Origin: Sulfurimonas sp. HSL-3221
GTDB lineage: Bacteria > Campylobacterota > Campylobacteria > Campylobacterales > Sulfurimonadaceae
Direction of reading: 5' to 3'
DNA length: 64,000 nt
NCBI RefSeq assembly: GCF_021044585.1
Contig: NZ_CP087998.1
Span: 806,001 to 870,000, forward strand
A program made the position numbers and the translations under genes. Below the pieces are notes generated by a model. That model was not told the origin of the DNA and made no database searches. It worked only from the letters and a program-made list of their open reading frames with translations. Shown here one piece after another: positions 30,662-45,064 of the stretch (its first letter is position 1; each line of letters opens with the position of its first letter).

Positions 30662-30861
30662 GATGCGGATTATAGCAGACGCTTCTTTCCGGAGGCAATC
30701 GGACGCTGCAGTATTTATGTTCAAGACTAAATTGATTTTTCTTATATGAAATTAATTTTTTCCGCTCTATACTGGAGGGAATGAATAGCTGTTTTTCTCA
30801 CGGCTTTTAACCAAAGAGGAAGGGGAGGCTGTTCAAGGTTGTTTGATTTTTTTTGTACTGC

Positions 30862-30932
30862 AAGAAAAGCCTAACCCGGTGCGAATCGGGGGCGGAAAGC
30901 TACGGATCTTCTCGAAGATGGCCGGGTTGCCA
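30862..30932 (+). ncRNA. Cyclic di-GMP-I (GEMM-I) riboswitch aptamer, probable
   Basis: The core matches GEMM-I. A stem CCGGU/AUCGG (30876-30890) is capped by a GCGA tetraloop of the GNRA type, then comes GGCGGAAAGCTACGG (30891-30905), close to the conserved GACGCAAAGCC-ACGG block. A second stem AUCUU/AAGAU with loop CUCG is followed by GATGGCCGGGTTGCC (30917-30931), almost identical to the conserved 3' end. The 5' strand reads GCCTAACC where GGCAAACC is usual, so binding of c-di-GMP rather than cGAMP cannot be settled by eye. It lies in the leader of the 1079-residue secreted protein. Confidence 0.75.
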
Positions 30933-30934
30933 AA

Positions 30935-31077: not shown

Positions 31078-34000
31078 ATGAAAGCTTCATTTCGAGATAA
31101 ATGGGGGCTGATCAAGCGCATGCTGGGAGCGGGAGCATTGCTCTTCGCCGCAGCGGCGTCGGCCAACATCGGCTATACGCTGGAAGGGTGTCGCTCCACG
31201 TCTATTCCCGACGGATACGACCTGGCCGCGAACGACTATGTCTGCCCCGACGGGGCCTATACGACCGGTAACCTGAAAGGGTGGGCGGAACTCGACCTCG
31301 TTCCTCACCGGGTGACGATCGAAAACAAGGGGAGCGATCCCCAGAAGTTCACCTTTACCGTCGGCGGTGACTACCTGTACGCCGAAGGCGGCGATCTGCG
31401 CGGGTGGGACTACATTTCCGTATTGACCCTCGATACGGTCCTCTCCAACGATATCTGTAAAAATTGGGCGGAACAGTATCAGGACCAATTGGTCGTACAG
31501 GATCTGCTTATTACGCCTGACAATGAAGGTGCCGGGGGCGTCTTTACCACGATCTACCGACAAATTTCCGTCGCAGGCGGCGGACCGAGAGACGGTGAGT
31601 ATGCTGCGAACGGTCTTCCCGGCGGCGCGGTGTGTGTCGCCAACTACTATCAGCGTCTCGCCCTGGGATCACACCTCTATTCGGGATCTTCTTTGCAGTC
31701 CAACCTCTGGGATGCGAACCTGAGCTCCTCCGGCGGCCAGAAACGTGTCCAGCTTCCCGATGTCAAGGCGGTCGAAACCAGCAAAGATATGACGGCGCGC
31801 CAGGCCCAGTCTTTTGGATGGACCATCTCCAAAAGCGGCCCGGCTACGGTCGATTTCGGCGACACCTGTATCCCCGATGCGCCGACATCACGGCTTGTCG
31901 ATGTCAACGTGACCTGGACGAAACTGGCGGCTACCCCGGAAGGCACGGTCGGTATCCACACCAAGATCTATGTTTCCAACACCGCTTCGCGCGAGATCTA
32001 CGCCAATGTGTCTGATGTCGTCTACTACAGCGGCGGTATGACCAGTGTGCAGCCGGATGCGTGTACTCCTTATCTGATGCCGTCAAACTTCTCCGGGGTT
32101 GTTTGTGAACACGATGTCATCGTCCCCGAAGAAGAGAGCGGCGGACTTTATGACATCGCAACCATCGGTTTTGAAGACCCTTTCCTTCCTGATGTACCGA
32201 TCACGGTTACCCTGGAAGCCACCGCATCCGCATCGGTCCAACCGGGTGACCAGCTGAATACCACGGCAATCGTCAGAGACCACGAATGGATCGAGAGTAC
32301 GAACGGACTGATGAGTTTCTCAAGCGGTACGTTCACTCCGGGTGATATCGGTGAATACGATGCACCGTATGTTTCGGGAACACCGACGGTCGGTGACGTC
32401 AACTGGACTTCTTACACTGTTGAAGACAGCGGCGCGCTGGTTTTCCATAAGACTGTTTATATCGACGGTCCGATGATCGCGACCGGTATGCTCAGCGACA
32501 CCGCGACGATTGTGGGCGACGGGGGCTATACACCTGATCCTGCAACGCATGAAATCGGCCTCTCCGCCGATGCGACCGTGTCACTGACGATCAATAAAAC
32601 AATGCCGGATGTGTTCGACGGTGCCGACAGTGTCGATGTACTCTTCACCGTCTCCAAAGAGGGGATGGATGACATCAACCGGACCCTGACCTTCACGGCG
32701 CTCAGCCCGTTGACCCAATCGGTGAAGATCGAAGGTCTGGAACCGGGTTCGTATACTGTAACGGAAACGGCCCCGACCGGGTTTGAGCCGGAAGTAAGTG
32801 CAATTAAACCGGTGACGATCACACTGCCGTCCTGCGGTGAGTCCGTCACCTTTAACAACCAGCTGGCCGGTCAACCGGCGGTCAAAGTCATCAAAGTGAC
32901 CAAACCGGCTGAGATCGAGGGCGTACCGCAAAAAGGCGACTGGAACATGACGCTTTACAAAGAGACTGCTCCGGATGTCTGGACGGTTGTGACATCACTG
33001 CTTACTGATCCGAACAGCGCAACGAATGTGCTTGTACCGGAAGGTGAACTCGAAGAGGGTCACTACAAAGTCGTCGAAATCATGAAAGACGGCTGGTATA
33101 TGTCCGATCAATCCGGTGACTGCGACTTTACCGTCGACTATCCGGAAGATCTCTATCGTGCCGACTACGAGTGCCAGTTTGAAAATACCAAATACGCGAC
33201 GGTGATCATCAACAAGCTGACCGTGCCTGCGGGTATGCCGGATTACTTCCATTTCGCCCAGGATATCAACGGTTCGTACGATCTGAACCTGACCCACCTA
33301 GGATCGCACACCTTTATGGATGTGATTCCGAAAACCTATACGGTGACGGAAGATGATCCGAAACCGGAGTATGACCTGATCGGTCTCTCCTGTGTCGAGC
33401 TTGACGGCGTAGAGAACAGCTCTACTTCTCTTAGCCAGCGCGAAGCAACGATCGTCGTCGATCCGGGTGAAACGGTCCAGTGTACCTACACCAACCGCAA
33501 ACGCGGCAAGATCGAACTGATCAAACACGAAAACGGCGGCACGACGTACACGTTGGGCTGGACCTTCACGCTCAGTGGTAACGGCCTGAACCTTCTGGAT
33601 ACGCCTGACGCGAACGGACTGGTGGACTTCAACGGAGTCTGGCTGATTCCGGGTGCGGACTATACGGTGTGTGAAACGGGTATCCCGGTTGCCTGGGAAA
33701 ATCTCTGGTACGTTGAAGGTTCTCCGGTCTCTTATGACAACCCGGATTCCGGGCAGGCTTCCAACGAAAACCACTGCTACACCTTCAGCGTGGAAGCGAA
33801 TCAGACGATCCACTTCGTCGTAGAGAACAACTATACGCCTCCGGGCGGCGAACCGCGTACGATCGGCTACTGGAAGAACTGGACGACATGTGACGGCCAC
33901 GGCAACCAGCAGGAAAAGGCGGAAGCGGCAAACCTTCTGGCAGGTCAAACAGAGGTGTGGCTGGTCGATTATGTCCTGCCGATCACCCTGGGAAGCTTTG

Positions 34001-34317
34001 AAGTCGCCAGCTGTGAAGACGCGGTATCCATCCTGGATAAGCGCGATGTTTCCAGCGGCAAGAAACGTGCCGGCGACGCAGCCTACGGTCTGGCGGCGCA
34101 GCTGTTGGCGGCCAAAGCCAATGAGGCGGCCGGTGCGACAATATGTGCCGAAGCAAGCCAGGCCATCAGTGACGGCGATGCGTTGCTCTCATCGATCGGC
34201 TTCGACGGCACCGGTGGCTATCTCAAAGGCGGTAAGAATGCCGCGGCCCAAAAATCGTTGGCAACGTCGATTGCGGGTACGCTTGATTCTTACAACAACG
34301 GTGAACTCTGTCAGTAA
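31078..34317 (+). CDS. Large secreted protein with SpaA/prealbumin-like repeats
   Basis: 1079 residues. A Sec signal peptide with a long basic front ends at about residue 29 (ASA before Asn30). Residues 30-500 are beta-rich with scattered cysteines and DUF11-like character. About four prealbumin-like modules follow, marked by YTVTE, YKVVE, YTVTE and YTVCE near residues 559, 663, 754 and 861. From about residue 929 the GYWKNW motif opens a C-terminal domain that turns Ala/Lys-rich. No LPxTG anchor, as expected for a Gram-negative. Start has an AGGAGA site. Most likely an adhesin or matrix/surface-layer component controlled by the upstream riboswitch; that role is inferred. Confidence 0.85.
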   Translation: MKASFRDKWGLIKRMLGAGALLFAAAASANIGYTLEGCRSTSIPDGYDLAANDYVCPDGAYTTGNLKGWAELDLVPHRVTIENKGSDPQKFTFTVGGDYLYAEGGDLRGWDYISVLTLDTVLSNDICKNWAEQYQDQLVVQDLLITPDNEGAGGVFTTIYRQISVAGGGPRDGEYAANGLPGGAVCVANYYQRLALGSHLYSGSSLQSNLWDANLSSSGGQKRVQLPDVKAVETSKDMTARQAQSFGWTISKSGPATVDFGDTCIPDAPTSRLVDVNVTWTKLAATPEGTVGIHTKIYVSNTASREIYANVSDVVYYSGGMTSVQPDACTPYLMPSNFSGVVCEHDVIVPEEESGGLYDIATIGFEDPFLPDVPITVTLEATASASVQPGDQLNTTAIVRDHEWIESTNGLMSFSSGTFTPGDIGEYDAPYVSGTPTVGDVNWTSYTVEDSGALVFHKTVYIDGPMIATGMLSDTATIVGDGGYTPDPATHEIGLSADATVSLTINKTMPDVFDGADSVDVLFTVSKEGMDDINRTLTFTALSPLTQSVKIEGLEPGSYTVTETAPTGFEPEVSAIKPVTITLPSCGESVTFNNQLAGQPAVKVIKVTKPAEIEGVPQKGDWNMTLYKETAPDVWTVVTSLLTDPNSATNVLVPEGELEEGHYKVVEIMKDGWYMSDQSGDCDFTVDYPEDLYRADYECQFENTKYATVIINKLTVPAGMPDYFHFAQDINGSYDLNLTHLGSHTFMDVIPKTYTVTEDDPKPEYDLIGLSCVELDGVENSSTSLSQREATIVVDPGETVQCTYTNRKRGKIELIKHENGGTTYTLGWTFTLSGNGLNLLDTPDANGLVDFNGVWLIPGADYTVCETGIPVAWENLWYVEGSPVSYDNPDSGQASNENHCYTFSVEANQTIHFVVENNYTPPGGEPRTIGYWKNWTTCDGHGNQQEKAEAANLLAGQTEVWLVDYVLPITLGSFEVASCEDAVSILDKRDVSSGKKRAGDAAYGLAAQLLAAKANEAAGATICAEASQAISDGDALLSSIGFDGTGGYLKGGKNAAAQKSLATSIAGTLDSYNNGELCQ

Positions 34318-36335: not shown

Positions 36336-36824
36336 TCATTCATGGTTTTTGTAGCCGGCAAGCTTCTTTTTGACCGACGATGACGCCTGCGCAAGGACAA
36401 ACTTGATGTCTCCGAAGCCTGTCGCTTTATCGGCATTGAAATCGATAAGCCGATGCTTCGTCCAGCGGGTCCGATAGTAGTCGTCAATCGCAAACCTGAC
36501 TTCCTGCAGGGCAGGCTGCCGATGGACATAGCGGCCCATCACCTCCACCGAGGCTTTTTCCAACGCGCAGTAAAGATCCAGTTCTTCTAATTGTGAGCAG
36601 TCTGACACAGGGGCTTTTCTCCAGGCGCTTTCATTAGGCAGTAGCGTATCCGCCCTGCTGAGAATCTCCAAATCGACCGGAGAGACGCGGACGTCCCTCC
36701 GCTCATAATCCGGGAGACCCAAAACGATGCCGTTTTCGGTTTTGTAGACACCGATGACGCCGAAAATGATAAACGAACCCAGGAGCAGGAGGGACAAAAG
36801 TGTATAGAAAATGTATTTTTTCAT
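36336..36824 (-). CDS. Unrecognised membrane-anchored protein
   Basis: 162 residues: an N-terminal membrane helix (about residues 4-26) and a soluble, presumably periplasmic, domain of about 130 residues with two cysteines in VSDCSQLEELDLYCALE that could form a disulfide. I do not recognise the family. Codon use is less GC-biased than in core genes, and it stands alone between two unrelated genes. Confidence 0.6.
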   Translation of the reverse strand: MKKYIFYTLLSLLLLGSFIIFGVIGVYKTENGIVLGLPDYERRDVRVSPVDLEILSRADTLLPNESAWRKAPVSDCSQLEELDLYCALEKASVEVMGRYVHRQPALQEVRFAIDDYYRTRWTKHRLIDFNADKATGFGDIKFVLAQASSSVKKKLAGYKNHE

Positions 36825-36923: not shown

Positions 36924-37220
36924 CTATTTCATATACCTTTTTGTCAATCGGCAAAAATCGTAAAAATCGCTCAGCATCAAGTAGCGGATTTCGACGTCTT
37001 CAAACTTTTTCTTCAAGATGGTATGGCCCTGCAGATAGAGCTTGACATCGTTTTGGAACTCTTTGGGATATTCAAGTTTTTCGGCTCCCAAAGAGGAGAA
37101 GCAATCCAAAAATTCAAAAAACAGTGCGGTGACGATCTTCTCTTTTTCCGGTGTCCTGTTTGAGAGAAAGTCCGTTGTCTCCTCAAATGTCTCGCATATT
37201 TTCGTCAAACACGCATTCAT
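36924..37220 (-). CDS. Unrecognised small cytoplasmic protein
   Basis: 98 residues from the ATG at 37220, selected for the AGAGGA site 8 bases upstream; the frame is open further. It is helical and charged with no signal or membrane segment (MNACLTKICETFEET at the start). No family recognised. Confidence 0.5.
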   Translation of the reverse strand: MNACLTKICETFEETTDFLSNRTPEKEKIVTALFFEFLDCFSSLGAEKLEYPKEFQNDVKLYLQGHTILKKKFEDVEIRYLMLSDFYDFCRLTKRYMK

Positions 37221-37374
37221 ATATATCCTCTTTACTCTGGTCTGTCGGAAGGGAAGTACAAAAACTGTACCTGCTGCTGAAATTCGACATGGAATATAGT
37301 TCAGCCCACCCTTCGTCAATCAGCCATAGTGCAATGAACATCATCAAAAAATAGCCCGCCAGCAGCGTGTCCAT
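37183..37374 (-). CDS. Possible small membrane protein
   Basis: 63 residues with one N-terminal hydrophobic stretch (LLAGYFLMMFIALWLI) and a polar tail, overlapping the 98-residue gene by 38 nt. An AGG lies close before the ATG. It may be a real small protein or a chance ORF in an AT-richer stretch. Confidence 0.3.
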   Translation of the reverse strand: MDTLLAGYFLMMFIALWLIDEGWAELYSMSNFSSRYSFCTSLPTDQSKEDIYECVFDENMRDI

Positions 37375-37434: not shown

Positions 37435-38154
37435 TCAGTAGATCCCCGGAAACAGGCGATAGCGTACGTCCTTCGCATAATCAGGGTACCCGGGAAGCTC
37501 CTTATGAAGGGTCTTGTCTTCAAGCGCGGTCCGGATCACGGCGATGAGCAACGCCGCCGCGGCAGGGATGAGGGTCCACAGTGAGTCCAGGGCGATGATG
37601 ATGCCGGCAAGGGCCAGAAGGTTGCCAGCATAGCCCGGGTGGCGCACGACCCTGTAAGGGCCGCTGTCGCAAACCGTGTGTCCCCGGTCTGTCTGGATAC
37701 GCACCGTCGTGGAGAAAAAGCGGTTCTCGACAATGGCCCAGGCGGCGAAGGCGTACCCCAGCGCGATGAGCACGAGGCCGAGAAGGTTGAGCCATGCCGG
37801 CATAAGCGGTGTCCATCCATAGCGGTGGTCCAGACCCGCGACGATGACAAGGGGGAATGAGAGGCTCACCGCCATCAGGGGGGCAAGAATTTTATCCCAT
37901 GGCTTCGCACTCTGTGCCTTTTCAAGGCTGGCCCTCTCTGCGAGAATGCCCGGATGCCGTTTTTCTGCCAGAAACCGTCCGCCGACACCGGCAAGAAACA
38001 GCAGCACGGAGTAGACCCAGCCCTGCCACCATCCAAAATCGCCGCCGCAGAGCAGAAGCACCAGCGGGATGATGAGGTAAAGAAGGATCACATTAAGCCA
38101 CAGGCGGGGGCCGGGAGCCTGGTTTATGTTCGGATGAACGGTTTTCAAGGCCAT
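37435..38154 (-). CDS. Isoprenylcysteine carboxyl methyltransferase (ICMT/PEMT)-like membrane protein
   Basis: 239 residues from the ATG at 38154 preceded by GGAGAAAAAT. About five membrane helices, then the cofactor-binding GPYRVVRHPGYAG motif and the E-x-LP-GY-x-Y segment ending DVRYRLFPGIY. These proteins use SAM to methylate lipids, isoprenoids or thiols in the membrane. The substrate is unknown. It follows the HExxH protein by 39 bases with no attC between, so the two may share a cassette. Confidence 0.82.
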   Translation of the reverse strand: MALKTVHPNINQAPGPRLWLNVILLYLIIPLVLLLCGGDFGWWQGWVYSVLLFLAGVGGRFLAEKRHPGILAERASLEKAQSAKPWDKILAPLMAVSLSFPLVIVAGLDHRYGWTPLMPAWLNLLGLVLIALGYAFAAWAIVENRFFSTTVRIQTDRGHTVCDSGPYRVVRHPGYAGNLLALAGIIIALDSLWTLIPAAAALLIAVIRTALEDKTLHKELPGYPDYAKDVRYRLFPGIY

Positions 38155-38193
38155 ATTTTTCTCCGTAATCAGCCGGGATTTCAAAATGTATGT

Positions 38194-38760
38194 TTACAAA
38201 CTGTGCGCTTCTTCCCACAGGCGCTCTTCGCCTACCCTGCTGTACCAATTGTCGAATTGGGAACGGTAGTGTTCAAAAGGGTCTTTCAACTTGGGGCGGG
38301 GGTCTTTGCTGAGGGAATATGCCATCCCTTCGGTGAACCACTTTGGAGCCCGTAAAACACTGATCATGCCCAATCTTTCATTTTGAAGATGATGGATCAT
38401 TTCGTGCCTTACATAATACCGTTTCCAGGCCATGGGTCCGATAATGATGCCGAAAGTCCCCAGGGTGATTGCCGAGCGCCTTCCCAAGCCGAATGACTCG
38501 GAACAGGCTTCTGAACTGCAAAATACGGTACGCGGAGCATTCTTGATCTCGCCGACGGAGGTGTCGACGAAGCGCAGGGCTTCCTCATAGAGTGCGGCTG
38601 CGTCTTTCAGGCGGGAAGCATCGTCCGTACATAGGGTGTCGCCGAAGCACGAAACACCGGCCAGTTGAGGTGCAATGATCCGAACCGGTTTATAGAATGC
38701 CCAGGTACAGAGGATAATCGCTGCAATGAGCAAGGCTGCTATCGAAACTGCTTTTTTCAT
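38194..38760 (-). CDS. Membrane-anchored putative zinc metallopeptidase (HExxH)
   Basis: 188 residues. An N-terminal membrane anchor (residues 5-23) is followed by a soluble domain holding RHEMIHHLQNERLG (HExxH near residue 119) and, about 20 residues on, WFTEGMAYSLS with a glutamate placed as the third zinc ligand of gluzincins. Four cysteines occur in the N-terminal half. Substrate unknown. The start lies 15 bases after an attC-like R' core, fitting a cassette gene. Confidence 0.68.
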   Translation of the reverse strand: MKKAVSIAALLIAAIILCTWAFYKPVRIIAPQLAGVSCFGDTLCTDDASRLKDAAALYEEALRFVDTSVGEIKNAPRTVFCSSEACSESFGLGRRSAITLGTFGIIIGPMAWKRYYVRHEMIHHLQNERLGMISVLRAPKWFTEGMAYSLSKDPRPKLKDPFEHYRSQFDNWYSRVGEERLWEEAHSL

Positions 38761-38775
38761 TTTATGACTATAGTC

Positions 38776-38807
38776 GCATAACGTAAATGTTGCAGGATGC
38801 GTTAATC
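38776..38807 (-). repeat. attC-like remnant (degenerate)
   Basis: On the minus strand GATTAAC (38801-38807), containing the stop codon of the membrane-protein gene, is followed by GTTATGC (38776-38782). The spacing is only 18 bases, much shorter than a normal attC, and the central palindrome is missing. It is either a deletion product of an attC or chance. Confidence 0.35.
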
Positions 38808-39077
38808 ATTTCGACTTCTCCATGCGCTGCTCATCAAATATAATGATCCGATCGACAAGCCTGAAATCAGCAAGGCTCCGATCCCCATAATGACGACTTT
38901 GACGATGCTTTTTGGCTCCACGATCAAGTCATAGACAATGTGACCGGAAAGATATCCGAATGTCATGGCTGCCACAGCCATGAGCAAGGCAATAATGTAT
39001 ATAACTAATTTCCTGGGGATGAGCTCTGCAAGGGTCTGGCCGATCAATTCCTCGATAAGAAAATCAAGCAATGGCAT
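38802..39077 (-). CDS. Small membrane protein, unrecognised
   Basis: 91 residues with two hydrophobic segments (about residues 24-50 and 60-84). No family recognised. It overlaps the end of the SRPBCC gene by 14 nt, so the two are probably co-translated within one cassette. Confidence 0.55.
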   Translation of the reverse strand: MPLLDFLIEELIGQTLAELIPRKLVIYIIALLMAVAAMTFGYLSGHIVYDLIVEPKSIVKVVIMGIGALLISGLSIGSLYLMSSAWRSRND

Positions 39078-39531
39078 CCCTGTCTGGTTGCGAACGCTCT
39101 TCTGCCCGCTGTTTCAGGGCCTGATTCATCTCTTCGAACCCGCGTTTGGTGCCGCTGTCCAGACTGGAGCGAAAGAGTCCGACCAGGATGCCGCTGAAGC
39201 GCTCGTTCTGCTGAAACCGCACCTTGTCTTCGCCGAGCGGTTCGATGATAAAAGCATGCTTGCCGTCAAAGAGACCCGGAAACAGAACCCGGCCCAGCCA
39301 CCTCAGTTCGCGCCCGGCTTCAGCGGCGAGCACTGTCGGAGAGAAACGCATAGGTTTGCTACCGCTCGGCTGGATCTCAACCCGAAGCCGCTTACCCTGG
39401 ATCGGGGTGCCCTGTATCGAACGGATGAAAGGATTCCACTGAGGATATGCCGTGAAATCAACCAGGATCTCCCATACCCGTTCAGCGGGTGCATCGATTT
39501 CTATTTCTGTATGTAGTTCGTGAATAGCCAT
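39064..39531 (-). CDS. SRPBCC (START-like) domain protein
   Basis: 155 residues, a single helix-grip fold: IDAPAERVWEILVDFTAYPQWNPF at the start and a long C-terminal helix (SLDSGTKRGFEEMNQALKQ). The fold binds hydrophobic ligands; no specific role can be read. The ATG is 20 bases after the R' core of the attC at 39552-39621. First gene of a two-gene cassette. Confidence 0.85.
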   Translation of the reverse strand: MAIHELHTEIEIDAPAERVWEILVDFTAYPQWNPFIRSIQGTPIQGKRLRVEIQPSGSKPMRFSPTVLAAEAGRELRWLGRVLFPGLFDGKHAFIIEPLGEDKVRFQQNERFSGILVGLFRSSLDSGTKRGFEEMNQALKQRAEERSQPDRDAIA

Positions 39532-39551
39532 ATGGTTTCTATGTCATTGAT

Positions 39552-39621
39552 GTTCAACGTCTAAAAAGAGCAATCAAAATCGCCTATTGTTTTTTAAACG
39601 GTCACTTCGGATTCGTTGGGG
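39552..39621 (-). repeat. attC site (70 bp)
   Basis: Minus strand: R'' CCCCAAC (39615-39621), R' GTTGAAC (39552-39558), the latter a full match to GTTRRRY. The interior has the same GCAATCAAAA-type arm, in plus orientation, as the sites at 42374 and 42994. The stop codon of the upstream gene is 3 bases from R''. Confidence 0.75.
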
Positions 39622-39624
39622 ATT

Positions 39625-39870
39625 TCAGATATCCATCGCGGTATAGAATAGGTCATCCGTTCGATTGTCTGTGGCCGTATCATTTTCTTTGTACTTTCGC
39701 AGCAACCATATTTCGAAGACTGCTCCGATCAATGGGACGCCCAATATGACGATGGTTTTGAAGATTTTTGTTCTTCTTGTATAGAGTATTTCTTCCAATA
39801 AAATAGACATGATTGCGCCAATGTCAACAGCTATTACCGTCCAAATGAGAAATAGATAAACACCAGTCAT
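39625..39870 (-). CDS. Small membrane protein, unrecognised
   Basis: 81 residues from the ATG at 39870 (AGGAAATAAT upstream). Two membrane helices (about residues 4-24 and 40-60) and a polar tail rich in Asp, Asn and Thr. It has the shape of a PLDc_N/phospholipase-D-nuclease N-terminal-like two-helix protein, but I cannot assign it. Confidence 0.55.
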   Translation of the reverse strand: MTGVYLFLIWTVIAVDIGAIMSILLEEILYTRRTKIFKTIVILGVPLIGAVFEIWLLRKYKENDTATDNRTDDLFYTAMDI

Positions 39871-40122
39871 ATTATTTCCTAACAATTCAATGGCATTAAT
39901 TTTAGCAGATTATTGTAAATATGTACATTTTTTTAAACAGACTAAAACGTAATTTATTTCTATTTCTAATATTATACAGATGAATCCCATGGAAATTGGA
40001 CAATGCAGAATCGAGGCGATGGAGACAAAGCGGATAGCAGTGTTATTCGTCAAAAGTGCCGGAAATAATGGATAGTGGTGTATGGGAGGAGGAAAAAAAT
40101 TGCTTTGAAAACTTTCTGTTGT
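39871..40122. other. AT-rich cassette interior without a convincing gene
   Basis: About 250 bases between the attC candidate at 40123-40209 and the small membrane protein. A minus-strand frame (39910-40131) starts within the attC core and lacks a ribosome binding site, so I do not call it. The stretch could be a long leader or a decayed cassette gene. Confidence 0.4.
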
Positions 40123-40209
40123 ATTCAACACATCAGAGCTTCGTTGACGAGTACGAATAGAGCTGCCAGATCAAGCAGTATGACAAGGGTGACCAAATGC
40201 GGGTTACTG
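40123..40209 (-). repeat. attC candidate (87 bp)
   Basis: Minus strand: CAGTAAC (40203-40209) includes the racemase stop codon; GTTGAAT (40123-40129) is a full GTTRRRY match. The arms show only partial complementarity (CTGC/GCAG in the middle) and R'' is a poor RYYYAAC match, so support is weaker than for the other sites. Confidence 0.5.
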
Positions 40210-40926
40210 CTTGGTCTCCATCTGTTGGACAGCTTCCGTTCCAAGCGCCAGTGCAACGGCCTTGTCAATGTGAATAGCCATAGAATCAAATAGGGTCATG
40301 GGGATCTCTGCGGCACGGATCAATAACGGCAGTTCGGTATTTGCCAGAACTATACCTTCTGCGCCCTCGTTCTTCAGATCCCCGATCATTTCAAGTATCC
40401 TGGTGCGCGACGTCTGGCGTATGTCACCCAAAGCAAGCTCTCCATAAATCACGTTATGAATAAAGTCTCGCGCTTTTTTGGGAGGAGTGATGATTTTAAG
40501 TCCATGCCGCTCCAACCGCTCCCGGTAAAAAGCCTGTTCCATAACGAAGTTCGTCCCGAGCAGTCCTAGCGTGGAAACTCCCGCACTAGCGACCGCTTCC
40601 GCCACCGCATCTGCAATATGTACGATCGGAATACCGAGTTGCTGCTGTACCTGCGGAACAACTTTGTGCAGCGTATTGGATGCGATCAGAACGAAGCTCG
40701 CTCCAGCTAGTTCGAGCTTATGCGCTGCAGTGCCAAGAACTTCGGATAACCGGTCCCACTCCTCATCGTGCTCGAGCCGGGCGACGGGTTCGAAGTCCAG
40801 GCTGTACATCACCAGTTCGGCAGAGTGCAGAGCTCCAAGCTGCGACTTGACAGCCTGATTGATCAGGCGGTAATACTCAGACGACGACTCCCAGCTTACG
40901 CCGCCGATGAGACCGATCGTCTTCAT
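40204..40926 (-). CDS. Aspartate/glutamate racemase-like protein without both active-site cysteines
   Basis: 240 residues, YgeA-like along the full length (IGLIGGVSWESSSEYYRLIN, HIADA, LLGTNFVMEQAFYRERL). Racemases of this superfamily use two cysteines, in CNTxH and GCTE motifs. Here they read SNTLHK and ANTELP, so both catalytic positions lack cysteine. Some YgeA relatives already lack the first. It may be a different isomerase, hydrolase or a ligand-binding protein. It follows the GNAT gene by about 30 bases with GAGGGGG as ribosome binding site. Confidence 0.78.
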   Translation of the reverse strand: MKTIGLIGGVSWESSSEYYRLINQAVKSQLGALHSAELVMYSLDFEPVARLEHDEEWDRLSEVLGTAAHKLELAGASFVLIASNTLHKVVPQVQQQLGIPIVHIADAVAEAVASAGVSTLGLLGTNFVMEQAFYRERLERHGLKIITPPKKARDFIHNVIYGELALGDIRQTSRTRILEMIGDLKNEGAEGIVLANTELPLLIRAAEIPMTLFDSMAIHIDKAVALALGTEAVQQMETKQ

Positions 40927-40957
40927 GCAGCCCCCTCATTCGCTACTGTTTTTGCTT

Positions 40958-41461
40958 TCATTTTTTGCTTTGGGATGAGACGTTTTTTGCATAGACGGCA
41001 TAAGGGACTCCGTAGATGTCGGCCACATTTGTTTGTTTGACAAACCCCATCCGCGAATACATGGGAAGTGCGACTTTCATGACGGGACTCGTGTGCAGGC
41101 CGATATGCGACGCGTTGTCCCGCACGGCTCTTTGAATGCACTCCTGCGTCAACGCTTTTCCGATGCCAAGACCTCTGTTTTGGGGAGCAACCACCAGCAT
41201 TCTCAGTACGGCCCAATCGCTGGCAAAGATATCGGATTTCGGTCGGTCGGGACCGACGTACACTACGGCCCCGACAAGTGCGTCACTCTGCGTTGCTACA
41301 ATGATTTCCGCATGATCTGCAAAAGAAGCCATATCACTGATTTTTTTCGAGAATGCGGGCCAATCATTATAGGCGTTTCGATACTCGCCAAAAGCTTCTA
41401 ATGCCAGGTTGTTCAGGCTATCGGCGTATTTCGTTTCAAAGTCTTTAATGACAAATTCCAT
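40958..41461 (-). CDS. GNAT family N-acetyltransferase
   Basis: 167 residues from the ATG at 41461. The acetyl-CoA loop is VVAPQNRGLGIGKALTQECI (V-x-P-x-x-R-G-x-G-I-G) near residues 105-125, and the C-terminal MYSRMGFVKQT strand matches the fold. Small-molecule acetylation is likely; the substrate is unknown. The start lies 55 bases after the attC R' core at 41517. Confidence 0.85.
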   Translation of the reverse strand: MEFVIKDFETKYADSLNNLALEAFGEYRNAYNDWPAFSKKISDMASFADHAEIIVATQSDALVGAVVYVGPDRPKSDIFASDWAVLRMLVVAPQNRGLGIGKALTQECIQRAVRDNASHIGLHTSPVMKVALPMYSRMGFVKQTNVADIYGVPYAVYAKNVSSQSKK

Positions 41462-41516
41462 TCTTTCTTCTTTGACCAATATCTAAAAATATATATTCCA
41501 AACCCCGCTTTTAGCA

Positions 41517-41574
41517 GTTTAACGCGTTGGGCCGCTCGCGGGTTTTTGATTGGGTTCCCCAGTATTTGTTTGAC
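41517..41574 (-). repeat. attC site (58 bp)
   Basis: Minus strand: R'' GTCAAAC (41568-41574) directly follows the stop codon of the YCII gene, and R' GTTAAAC (41517-41523) is a full GTTRRRY match preceded by CCCAACGC. The central hairpin is CCGC/GCGG with a GAGC loop. It keeps the AATCAAAAAC arm shared with the other sites but is shorter. Confidence 0.75.
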
Positions 41575-41829
41575 TCATTTTGCGTTCCATTCGTAGACGG
41601 TAACGATGGATGACTTAGAAGTATGCACCGGGTCACTGAACGCTATGGCCTCGGCCTCTTCAAGGTTGTCAGCCTTAATCAAGTATGCACCGCCGCTCTT
41701 GTCCGTAAACGGACCGGCAAGTTCAAGTTTGCCTCGTTGTCTCAGGTCATCGAGAAAAGCGTAATGCGCCTCAATGACTGACGGGTCGAACTGGGGTGTG
41801 CGAAACGTTGTAATGAGATATCTAAACAC
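41575..41829 (-). CDS. YCII-related protein
   Basis: 84 residues, a single YciI-like dimeric alpha-beta barrel: YLITTFRTPQFD at the start, FLDDLRQRGKLELAGPFTDKSGGAYL in the middle and EAIAFSDPV near the end, where a conserved aspartate usually lies. Function is often unclear. A CTATAATG in minus orientation near 41845 may be its own promoter. Confidence 0.8.
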   Translation of the reverse strand: MFRYLITTFRTPQFDPSVIEAHYAFLDDLRQRGKLELAGPFTDKSGGAYLIKADNLEEAEAIAFSDPVHTSKSSIVTVYEWNAK

Positions 41830-41860
41830 TTAAATTCCTTTTTTTGGTTTGCATTATAGA

Positions 41861-42358
41861 TTAAGCCTTTCCTGCCAGACGTAGGATATTGAGCCCTTCG
41901 TCTTCACTTGGAGCCTCGAAGAACTGGGTGACATGGTTGAACACCGCTTCATTGTCGAACTGCGCCCGTTCCGGCTGCTCGGTTCGGCGTTTTGCAATCT
42001 GAGATAAGCATTGTTCGTTGCTCACGTCGAGAAAGATCAGCTCATGTTCGCACGAAGCTTCACTGCAGAGCTGTTTGAACCACGCTCTCTGCCTAACCGT
42101 ATTCGCCGGAAAATCCATCACCACGTTCGTGCCCGTATTGATGATCTGCAGCACATGCAATTTCACAAACGGCTTGATCATCATGGAAAATTTCAGGTAG
42201 TCGTCAAATGAGTTGATCTGTCCGGGGTAATGCGATGATAGCCAATCATCTTCGGACAGAAGCACTGCATTTTTTTCAGCTGACACGGCTTTTGATTTCG
42301 TCGATTTTCCGGCACCCATCTTTCCGCAGAAAAAAGTGAGAGTTCCTTTTTCTTTCAT
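41861..42358 (-). CDS. P-loop kinase-like AAA protein
   Basis: 165 residues with Walker A GKMGAGKSTKSKAV near residue 11 and VVMDFPANTVRQRAWFK, typical of the AAA_33 / small-molecule or zeta-toxin-like kinase group. It is too short for a full zeta toxin and no antitoxin-like ORF is next to it. The ATG is 16 bases after the R' core at 42374. Confidence 0.72.
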   Translation of the reverse strand: MKEKGTLTFFCGKMGAGKSTKSKAVSAEKNAVLLSEDDWLSSHYPGQINSFDDYLKFSMMIKPFVKLHVLQIINTGTNVVMDFPANTVRQRAWFKQLCSEASCEHELIFLDVSNEQCLSQIAKRRTEQPERAQFDNEAVFNHVTQFFEAPSEDEGLNILRLAGKA

Positions 42359-42373
42359 GATCCCTTCTTCACT

Positions 42374-42445
42374 GTATAACGTTTGAAATGAGCAATCAAA
42401 AAGCCGCTTGCTAGTTTTTGAGTGGTCTTCTTTGGATTGTCATAT
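42374..42445 (-). repeat. attC site (72 bp)
   Basis: R' reads GTTATAC (42374-42380) on the minus strand and R'' ATATGAC (42439-42445), the latter with one change from AAC. The interior has an inverted repeat of AATCAAAAAG and CTAGTTTTTGAGT around a short GCTTGC centre. Same length as and clearly similar to the site at 42994-43065. Confidence 0.7.
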
Positions 42446-42450
42446 TCCTT

Positions 42451-42978
42451 CTATTCAATAGTATTGCTTTGAACGACTTCAAATTGTGATTTATGCAATA
42501 AGACGCTATTAGAATAAATCTGTATCGTCCAATCCCCAGGGTTAGTTTCATAAGCGGCGTCGAAATAATATTCAAAAAACCAGTCATAGCTTCCTTTATG
42601 CCCTGAAATATCTATGGGACGTTTTATACTTGAACGCTTTTCTCCAGTGGGGAGAGTCATTTCAGGAAAGTTTACGCGTAATTCCAGGCTTTGGACGTTT
42701 TGTGGAATATCATAGAACCTTACACCTAACACGAAACCTGTCCCAAGTTTATTGGGAATTGTCCACACATTTGGTGCTATTAATTCAATTTTGTATGTAT
42801 CATCGTTCACAAGTCCCGATACCCTTGATTCATCTTGATAGAGCGAACCACCTGTTTTTTTGAGGTAACTGTGTACGAGTAGGAAAGATTTTATAGACCC
42901 ACTGGGGTTATTAAAAGCACTGGCATTTATTACTGATATCATCGTCAGAAGAATCAGTATGAGTATATTCTTTTTCAA
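42451..42978 (-). CDS. Secreted protein of unknown family
   Basis: 175 residues: signal peptide (1-20, ending VINASA), then a beta-rich domain with aromatic residues (KGSYDWFFEYYFD, GDWTIQIYSNSVLLHKSQFEV at the end). The C-terminal part looks like a beta-sandwich in which a strand reads as a pilus/chaperone-like edge, but I do not recognise it. AT-rich codon use points to a foreign origin. Followed at once by an attC. Confidence 0.65.
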   Translation of the reverse strand: MKKNILILILLTMISVINASAFNNPSGSIKSFLLVHSYLKKTGGSLYQDESRVSGLVNDDTYKIELIAPNVWTIPNKLGTGFVLGVRFYDIPQNVQSLELRVNFPEMTLPTGEKRSSIKRPIDISGHKGSYDWFFEYYFDAAYETNPGDWTIQIYSNSVLLHKSQFEVVQSNTIE

Positions 42979-42993
42979 TTATTTTCCTTTTTA

Positions 42994-43065
42994 ATATAAC
43001 GTTTAAAATGGGCAATCAAAAAGCCGCCTGCTGGTTTTTGATTGGTCTCCTGTGCCTTGTTGGCA
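42994..43065 (-). repeat. attC site (72 bp)
   Basis: Minus strand: R'' TGCCAAC (43059-43065) and R' GTTATAT (42994-43000). The interior contains a perfect 10-base inverted repeat, CAATCAAAAA and TTTTTGATTG, around GCCGCCTGCTGG, so the single strand folds into the hairpin expected of attC. R'' is 6 bases from the upstream stop codon. Confidence 0.78.
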
Positions 43066-43071
43066 AATGCG

Positions 43072-43446
43072 CTATGGCAGTACACCTCCTTCTTTCTTGA
43101 CATAGTGAATTCCTTTGTCATCCACAACCGTTTCATATCCAAGCACGGTCCAAACTTGGCAGAAAATAATTTTTCGAACGACATATCTTGCTACTTCTTC
43201 ATCCGTGACATACATGCCAATAAAATTGTTTACTGTCTCGGCACAAAATTCTTTTGATGCGGGCAATTTCTCAAAGCACTGTTCTTTTGTCATATTGCCA
43301 TCTGTCATTTCTTTTGCCCTTCGACATATTTGTTCATCATTATCAGAGGCATTTATAATGGATAAAATGATTTCTGATGTCTCCATAGTTTCAGCAATTG
43401 CAGCAATAGGAAGAAGTATTAAAATAAGAAGTGCGAAAAAATGCAT
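43072..43446 (-). CDS. Small secreted cysteine-containing protein, unrecognised
   Basis: 124 residues: signal peptide (1-18, ending AIAE), then about 105 residues with four cysteines (QICRRAK, EQCFEK, EFCAET, FCQVW), which could form two disulfides in the periplasm. AAAGGA ribosome binding site. The start is 25 bases after the R' core at 43472. No family recognised. Confidence 0.6.
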   Translation of the reverse strand: MHFFALLILILLPIAAIAETMETSEIILSIINASDNDEQICRRAKEMTDGNMTKEQCFEKLPASKEFCAETVNNFIGMYVTDEEVARYVVRKIIFCQVWTVLGYETVVDDKGIHYVKKEGGVLP

Positions 43447-43471
43447 CTGGTATCCTTTGAGTTGCTATCTT

Positions 43472-43553
43472 GTTTAACCGCAAAATAGTTATGGAATAGG
43501 TTGCTATAGCTTATGTCCCAGTATCGTTTCTTGAGTTTCTATGCTTGTTAGAT
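43472..43553 (-). repeat. attC site (82 bp)
   Basis: Both cores match consensus on the minus strand: R'' ATCTAAC (43547-43553, RYYYAAC) and R' GTTAAAC (43472-43478, GTTRRRY). The stop codon of the upstream gene is inside R'' (ATC TAA C), a typical feature of integron cassettes. Confidence 0.75.
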
Positions 43554-43928
43554 ACTTGGATGGTTGAAGTCATATTCCGTCCACCACTTGATGTTGTAGA
43601 TCTCTTCATTTTGAGCAAGCACTTTGCTAAGGGCTTTTTGTATAGTCTCAACCTCTTGTGCAGTTGGAATTTTTTTGAAAAGGAATTTTCTAACGTACGG
43701 CTTTCTTGGTTCGATGAAGCAGAGAAAGCCATCGACGTACTCCTCACAATGGCCGCAGCCAATCCAAATTGGGAATGCATCATTGCATATTGGAATCGTC
43801 CATCCCCAGTCCTCACTGAAAGGAGCCCTGACTTGAATACCTTCCTGCTTTAGCTGTTCGAACAATACAGTTGCAAGTTCTTTCACCGAAGAAACGAGAC
43901 TGGAACGAAACTCTACGTGTGTTTCCAT
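43548..43928 (-). CDS. Cassette protein of unknown function
   Basis: 126 residues from the ATG at 43928; an in-frame TTG five codons earlier overlaps the attC core and is less likely. Cytoplasmic, with SEDWGWTIPICNDAFPIWIGCG in two parts and a C-terminal WWTEYDFNHP. The layout (DWGW ... GC) resembles immunity-like or SMI1-type small proteins but I cannot assign it. The ATG lies 10 bases after the R' core at 43938. Confidence 0.6.
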   Translation of the reverse strand: METHVEFRSSLVSSVKELATVLFEQLKQEGIQVRAPFSEDWGWTIPICNDAFPIWIGCGHCEEYVDGFLCFIEPRKPYVRKFLFKKIPTAQEVETIQKALSKVLAQNEEIYNIKWWTEYDFNHPSI

Positions 43929-43937
43929 GCTATTGGC

Positions 43938-43993
43938 ACCCAACCATTAATCAGCTTACATTTCAGAGTACTATAGAACATTATTGGTTAGAA
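43938..43993 (-). repeat. attC site (56 bp), first of the array
   Basis: Minus strand: R'' TTCTAAC (43987-43993) and R' GTTGGGT (43938-43944, full GTTRRRY). The flanks pair as CTAACCA with TGGTTGG, and TAAT/ATTA extends the stem. No gene is found upstream of it, so its original cassette gene has been lost or lay further out. Confidence 0.7.
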
Positions 43994-44206
43994 AAACCTG
44001 GTAAATAATAACAATATACAATATATTAAACCTTTTGGAGTGCTATTGGTAAAAATAACTGTAGAGCAATGATCGTGATCTGGGGATAGATTGACTACGT
44101 GTAGGTCTACCAGCAGCGTTCGATATTAAGGAGAAAGTCATGATTGTAAAGGAGTTAATATAAGAGAGCATCAAAAGCCCGCAGGACTTTTGAAATAGGA
44201 GAAAAG
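43994..44206. other. AT-rich junction between cassette array and core genome
   Basis: No convincing ORF. It contains AT-rich TATATT/TATAT runs that could act as promoter for the array on the minus strand, and a hairpin at 44168-44190 (TCAAAAG/CTTTTGA with GCA loop) that on the minus strand follows the EI24 gene and may terminate it. No attI or integrase fragment was recognised. Confidence 0.5.
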
Positions 44207-45064
44207 TTACGACGGCAGCGCGTCCTTAGAGCCGTTCGGGATTTTGTCTACAGCGCTTTTCGCAGCTGTGACGCTTTCGTGGTGCGCTTCGACCTCGACA
44301 CTTTTGCGGAACATGGAGTGCGTAAGGACGATGACGTTGAAGACGGGGGTGATGTAGGCGGCGAAGGGGACCAGCGAGAGCAGGTAGAGTCCCAGGGTCG
44401 TCATTCTTATTTTCCCACCGTGGAAGGCCATGATCAGCTTGAAACGCTCCTTCGTCGTCGTTTCCGAGGCGACGTCGAGCAGGTAGAGCTTGTGGAACAG
44501 GTAGTAAAAGGGGAGGTTGAAGGCGACGAGGTTCAGCATCGGTACGAAATAGAAGGGCGTGAGCACCAAAAAGAGCAGCAGCATAATGACGACGTGCTTC
44601 AGCGAGGCGAGGAGGATGCCCGCGATGGAGCCGTGGTGTTCCAGCGGCAGGTAGCTGTAGTGACGCGCGTGGATCTCCCGCACGATGTAAGGCGTCAGAA
44701 AGCCGATGATGGCAAGGGCGACGAACATGGCGAGGATGAACGTCGCGATGCCGCCGACGGTAAAGACGATGAAACTGACCAGCCAGGAGGTGACGGTGTG
44801 CTCCATCAAGAAGCGCAAAATAGCCGAGCCGCCTTCAACCGTTGTCGTCTCGCTCTGCGTCTCCAGCACGCCGTTCTGTTGCGTCTGCTGGTGCTGTTCG
44901 ACCTGCAGGGTGCTCTGTTCAAGGGCGTCCAGGCCGGCGCTCGCCGCGCCGAAGAAGAGGACGTACATCACGAGCACAGTCCCGAAAAAGGGGATGAGGG
45001 CAAACTGGAGCATCCGCTTCGTAAAAAAGTCGCGGATGCTTACCGACCAGAGCGTTTCGTTCAC
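44207..45064 (-). CDS. EI24/CysZ-like membrane protein
   Basis: 285 residues with about four to five membrane segments, including LVSFIVFTVGGIATFILAMF and PFYFVPMLNLVAFNLPFYYL, the latter matching the EI24 domain. CysZ relatives transport sulfate, but many members are uncharacterised. A Gln/Thr-rich loop (residues about 55-80) is an odd insertion. Its start overlaps the YtfJ-like gene by 4 nt. Confidence 0.8.
   Translation of the reverse strand: MNETLWSVSIRDFFTKRMLQFALIPFFGTVLVMYVLFFGAASAGLDALEQSTLQVEQHQQTQQNGVLETQSETTTVEGGSAILRFLMEHTVTSWLVSFIVFTVGGIATFILAMFVALAIIGFLTPYIVREIHARHYSYLPLEHHGSIAGILLASLKHVVIMLLLFLVLTPFYFVPMLNLVAFNLPFYYLFHKLYLLDVASETTTKERFKLIMAFHGGKIRMTTLGLYLLSLVPFAAYITPVFNVIVLTHSMFRKSVEVEAHHESVTAAKSAVDKIPNGSKDALPS

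Follow-up and report, generated by a model that had tools for sequence, protein, structure and literature searches.

A one-way array of small genes and its attC sites

The window analysed here is a 64-kb stretch (positions 806001-870000) of the complete, single-contig genome of Sulfurimonas sp. HSL-3221 (2,524,721 bp; G000), which we compared with three complete congeneric genomes, G001, G006 and G007. Between 38.2 and 43.9 kb every gene lies on the minus strand, the genes are small and of unrelated families, and the GC content per kb is 40-51%, where the neighbouring 10 kb to left and right mostly have 52-60%; this bears out the original prediction, which had described the genes at 38.8-43.9 kb as one-way, small, unrelated and AT-rich. 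The array is bounded on the left by an isoprenylcysteine methyltransferase-like gene (37435-38184, minus strand; PF04191/PF04140) and on the right by a gene for an EI24/CysZ-family membrane protein (44207-45064, minus strand; PF07264, E 2e-21). Both genes are present in all four genomes, in which the flanks as a whole (up to 38184 and from 44146) are likewise conserved.

Read from its right end, the array starts with a gene of 131 aa (43548-43943; 126 aa from the ATG at 43928) that has no family match, followed by one of 124 aa with a signal-peptide-like start and a weak NttA match below the cut-off (43072-43446), a DUF3859-like gene of 175 aa (42451-42978), an AAA_33 kinase-like gene of 165 aa (41861-42358; PF13671, E 6e-21) and a YciI-like gene of 84 aa (41575-41829; PF03795, E 1.5e-11). 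Next come genes for a GNAT acetyltransferase (40958-41479; PF00583, E 1e-12), an aspartate/glutamate (amino-acid) racemase-like protein (40204-40926; over the TIGR00035 cut-off), an 86-aa membrane protein with a distant relative in another array, that at locus B (39625-39885), a polyketide-cyclase-like protein (39064-39531; PF10604, E 4e-16) and a 91-aa membrane protein common only to G000 and G001 (38802-39077), all of them again on the minus strand. The final cassette gene (38194-38760, minus strand, 188 aa) has lost its own attC in G000, while a weak one is retained beside its counterpart in G001 (L113 5727-5802, 27 bits, E 0.036), and the array thus reaches left to about 38190, farther than first described. 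Several array genes are orphans, and PADLOC found no anti-phage defence genes among the cassettes.

A 72-bp query taken near 43 kb has 14 other matches in the genome at 83-91% identity, plus several weaker ones. A covariance model (R1) was built from 17 attC sites and rebuilt without the two that lie in the window (R2). Once the mirror-strand matches that any palindrome will give are set aside, exactly three attC sites are left to R2 in the 64-kb window, all on the minus strand: 42991-43067 (71.6 bits, E 1.8e-13) and 42371-42447 (70.6 bits, E 3e-13), both excluded from the model that detects them, and a degenerate site at 39549-39623 (35 bits, E 4.4e-5). The original prediction had named a covariance-model search as a check on itself, and this genome-built equivalent of the model proposed there did find attC sites. 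Compared with shuffled sequences, the single strand folds well at 42994-43065 (z -3.4) and 42374-42445 (z -2.6), as does a site on the intI side described below (z -5.8), and no better than the shuffles at 39552-39621 (z -0.1). The TAAC/GTTA core is kept in most of the 17 sites, the full RYYYAAC/GTTRRRY consensus in some only; covarying base pairs of the hairpin do not outnumber those of shuffles, the 17 sites being too alike to vary. An Rfam search left the attC sites unmatched, its sole match being a c-di-GMP-I riboswitch (30859-30934, 54.4 bits) ahead of a large surface-protein-like gene (31078-34317).

Six attC sites had been proposed, and they fared unequally. Those at 42994-43065 and 42374-42445 are clear and that at 39552-39621 is degenerate, and the one at 41517-41574 (minus strand) is truncated: it retains the 5' half, an 82% direct repeat with 43023-43050 after which the alignment departs, and its counterpart in G001 is a fuller, though degenerate, copy. 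The interval 43472-43553 (minus strand) was to be an attC on the strength of its R'' and R' boxes, which do match the consensus; it has no covariance-model match, its fold is no better than shuffles (z +1.45), and among the 228 genomes of the family it is matched in the sister species only; as an attC it is unsupported. The sixth, at 43938-43993, is not an attC and is taken up below. A possible decayed attC that had not been listed lies at the end of the racemase gene (40158-40236, minus strand), with the weak score of 14.1 bits (E 0.59).

An attI leader and the remains of an integrase gene

To the right of the cassettes lies an integron leader of about 200 bp (43942-44139; type 2), whose 43942 end is the attI and to which the first cassette is joined at 43941/43942. 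It is 74-79% identical (E 1.6e-33) to sequences at locus E (L107 11260-11462) and at loci D and G of G007 (L126 12440-12641 and L128 8074-8272, respectively), and an orthologous copy is present in G001. In every copy the similarity starts at AAC (GTT towards the cassettes) and the sequence on the cassette side is unrelated, which is the anatomy of an attI. The proposed attC at 43938-43993 is the attI end of this leader; the model does not match it, and its fold does not surpass those of shuffled sequences. As for a possible Pc promoter, a TATAGT hexamer, found by eye, points towards the cassettes.

Directly beyond the leader, on the plus strand, is what remains of an integrase gene (44140-44193; blastn E 6e-9). 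Here an ATG at 44140 immediately precedes the last 16 integrase codons, one of which is now an internal stop, and the junction is identical in G001. The peptide that these codons would specify, IVKELI*ESIKSPQDF, shares 12 of its 16 residues with the intact IntI (VVKELNKESIKSPLDF). At locus D of G007, the leader is followed by an open start, MGKKLLDKVRDQISIR, that resembles the N-terminus of known integron integrases. The locus orthologous to that of the window holds longer remnants in the other two genomes: in G006, 32 C-terminal codons (91% identity) are fused to about the first 15, with the fusion lying across a short shared sequence, and in G007, 27 C-terminal codons are left. Since the start codon of intI now runs directly into the last 16 codons of an integrase, the gene was lost from the window locus by an internal deletion, and this deletion predates the split between G000 and G001. 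The remnants and the leader together mark the locus as a former integron rather than an array that never had an integrase.

Of the features of a complete integron, an attI heading the array is therefore present here, and an intI adjoining it is not. At least two close attC sites, the mark of a cluster of attC sites lacking an integrase (CALIN), are provided by those starting at 42991, 42371 and 39549, and beside them is no functional intI, only the 16-codon remnant at 44140-44193. The label CALIN, a cassette array without a local functional integrase, was thus well chosen: it fits the locus by definition, and in origin this is an integron that has decayed; the accompanying statement that neither IntI nor attI is visible does not hold, given the leader and the scar. 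The scar, the extension of the array to about 38190 and the weak site at 40158-40236 are additions to what had been described.

An intact integron elsewhere in the chromosome and dispersed attC loci

A search of the whole genome, which the original prediction had called for, turned up a single intact intI in the 2.52 Mb, 123 kb from the window array (973383-974324), the local gene being the remnant described above. Its match to TIGR02249 scores about 420.6-420.9 bits against a cut-off of 265, and the protein, which has retained the catalytic motifs, aligns over 311 residues with the Vibrio IntI of PDB 2A3V (E 6e-80). Among named sequences its closest relatives are those of Sulfurovum, Arcobacter and Sulfurimonas metagenome-assembled genomes, so that the assignment of this DNA to the Campylobacterota was right. 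Five attC sites (88-96 bits) lie beside the gene on the opposite strand, in the canonical divergent layout, and belong to the same family as those of the window.

The hairpins of the window could instead be transcription terminators, or some other dispersed repeat between horizontally acquired genes: the core is a strong hairpin and the element is spread over nine loci of the genome. However, the element occurs five times beside an intact intI in the expected divergent layout, its similarity covers the entire site, TAAC and GTTA ends included, and whole genes swap between its copies. Reading the hairpins as terminators or an unrelated repeat is scarcely credible on this evidence, and we rejected it because of the co-location with intI and the gene swapping.

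With R1, attC sites are found at nine loci of G000, lettered A to I: the window array, the intI locus and seven more. In order, they lie at about 561-563, 726, 845-849 (C, the window), 969-972 (D, intI), 1225-1227 (E), 1351 (F), 1394-1396 (G), 1471-1475 (H) and 1738 kb (I). As judged by the synteny of the flanks, many of these positions are also occupied by attC clusters in G001, G006 and G007, and no intact intI was found in any of these three genomes. Remnants of intI have six different end points, three at locus C (one shared by G000 and G001, one in G006 and one in G007) and three at locus D (in G001, G006 and G007), some of which may be nested. Scattered attC loci are not limited to Sulfurimonas: in a genome of another genus (contig G043:C1), an intI at 1044.8 kb adjoins an array that is longer and has attC sites of this class, and attC sites lie at about 1028-1044, 1309-1311, 1447-1453 and 1520 kb.

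Loci C, D, E and G have leaders in some of the genomes at least, with weaker traces at locus E in G006 and G007 and at locus G in G001 and G006, and none was found at loci A, B, F, H and I. Besides those already given, leader positions are L119 11165-11467 and L120 12230-12462. The leaders fall into two types that look unrelated yet occupy orthologous loci in different species: the leader of locus C is type 2 in G000 and G001 and type 1 in G006 and G007, and that of locus D is type 1 in G000, G001 and G006 and type 2 in G007. Loci E and G have one common truncated leader end, TTAATCATACATTGGAG, within different flanks. Leader sequences thus seem to have passed from platform to platform, by copying or by exchange. 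It should be noted that the intact IntI is accompanied by a type 1 leader and the window attI belongs to a type 2 leader; to act on the latter, this integrase would have to recognise an attI of the other type.

The presence of an intact IntI in the same genome, with attC sites of the same family, could also be read quite differently, namely that the distant integrase inserted cassettes at a non-classical chromosomal site (attG) and that there was never an integron at the window locus. Insertion of this kind has been described (Loot et al., 2024, as cited in PMC12444791), and the five loci at which no leader was found would be in keeping with it. At the window locus, however, the attI leader is one common to other platforms, and a correctly oriented remnant of intI lies there in G000 and in three sister genomes. 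We consider attG insertion highly improbable as the origin of the window array, and the attI and the intI scar led us to rule it out there; it is a misfit for such a locus and could fit those attC loci of G000 at which no leader was found. Empty sites at loci F and B were tried as a test of attG insertion and were not clean, as other species vary there as well.

Cassette turnover and the origin of the array

The genes of the array, as opposed to its flanks, are common only to G000 and G001; G006 and G007 lack them at the orthologous locus. The gene order is thus confined to the nearest sister species, and is not conserved in the manner of ordinary single-copy genes, as it would have had to be to refute the original prediction. 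We also looked for a clean empty version of the site. The EI24 gene of G003 stands among unrelated neighbours, with no attC, and in G043 the interval from EI24 to a YigZ-like gene holds a single transporter gene, compared with 8.8 kb in G000; neither qualified, and the contigs of G002 and G004 end at the EI24 region. The EI24 neighbourhoods in G003 and G043 indicate that the array region is specific to the lineage of G000.

Most array genes are kept in G001 and in the same order, with two kinds of exception. In place of the single DUF3859-like cassette of G000, G001 has three other one-gene cassettes between the same neighbours, with the boundaries falling in attC sites, and the block formed by the racemase and GNAT genes is absent from G001. 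Because both species carry the identical scar, these changes would most simply postdate the loss of the local intI. Exchange is also seen elsewhere in the chromosome. A one-cassette stretch of 1,079 bp at the intI locus of G000 (L009 5938-7016) is 99% identical to one at locus G of G007 (L128 8500-9578), and the similarity ends at attC sites. At locus G the flanking sequences of G000 and G007 are no more than 87-89% identical, and the stretch is therefore a cassette that was recently exchanged across species as well as across loci. Two genes just to the left of the window array (36336-36824 and 36924-37319) have counterparts near locus D in G006 (L120 1921-3153) and G007 (L126 3407-4659), and these genes have accordingly also moved between the two integron neighbourhoods.

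Could the array nevertheless be a relic that froze when intI was deleted, with all later differences due to ordinary deletion and homologous recombination between attC sites? The attC sites at 41517 and 39549, and the possible one at 40158, have decayed and most of the genes stand in the same order in G001, both of which would be expected of such a relic, and some of the cassette differences could be imitated by differential loss, the attC repeats having recombined homologously. However, the one-for-three exchange between the same neighbours, with attC boundaries and an identical scar in both species, is poorly accounted for in this way, and the two best attC sites are intact and still match the class found beside the intact intI. 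On balance, we regard a frozen array as unlikely.

We consider it very likely that the locus is a former complete integron whose intI was deleted and whose array would still be worked on in trans. This reading is favoured by the matches to an independent attC model, a leader and attI common to other loci, a scar in the correct place and orientation, longer remnants at the same locus in G006 and G007, an intact IntI with attC sites of the same family, the cassette swap relative to G001 within conserved flanks, and the 99% identical cassette at different loci of two species. A once-complete integron, whose attI and leader are still joined to cassettes ending in attC sites, some of them decayed, lost intI by internal deletion before G000 and G001 separated. 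For what followed we can present a rough proposal. An IntI from another locus, or an earlier copy, would excise and insert cassettes at the orphaned platform, which would serve as a secondary docking site and a store of cassettes. The apparent turnover after the loss was probably driven by IntI acting in trans, as far as can be judged from genome comparison; part of it may be old or due to integrases since lost, as G001, G006 and G007 have attC sites and no intact intI. More tentatively, and with rather less than even confidence, the whole could form a distributed integron in which several attI platforms with deleted integrases are served in trans by the single remaining IntI.

Integrons are not rare in this group, contrary to the remark that few are known in the phylum: an integron integrase over the curated cut-off is found in 68 of the 228 genomes of the family, with matches in 8 of the 18 genera, and the attC class of the window in 57 of the 228 (9 of the 18 genera). 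CALINs have been reported for Sulfurovum sp. NBC37-1 and Sulfurimonas autotrophica (PMC10295459), and a review lists integrons in Campylobacterota (PMC8618304). The window locus resembles other CALINs in having attC-bounded cassettes with no functional intI adjoining, and differs in that an attI and an intI scar are kept and that the chromosome carries a cognate intact intI at another place. The closest parallel is with the sedentary chromosomal integrons of Xanthomonas, in which an ancestral platform lost intI through large deletions, leaving CALINs at loci conserved across the genus (PMC12444791). There, the retained intI is at one canonical locus (ilvD), whereas G000 has several loci with their own attI leader and intI deleted at all but one. 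In a literature search that took in few of the subscription journals, we found no account of several attI-bearing, intI-deleted platforms in one chromosome, and it is this, rather than the occurrence of integrons or CALINs in Campylobacterota, that is the less usual part of the finding.

The origin of integrase-less cassette clusters has usually been inferred by indirect means only. In the present case the sequence itself records it: the attI is kept, the start of intI is fused to its end, the scar is common to a sister species and the cassettes changed later. The analysis also provides an attC class, found in 57 of 228 genomes, for a phylum that the published taxon-specific attC models do not cover (PMC8352920). 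Finally, a set of four complete genomes with conserved platforms, several intI deletions and one intact integrase makes the service of orphan platforms in trans testable, and with it the question of why intI is repeatedly lost.
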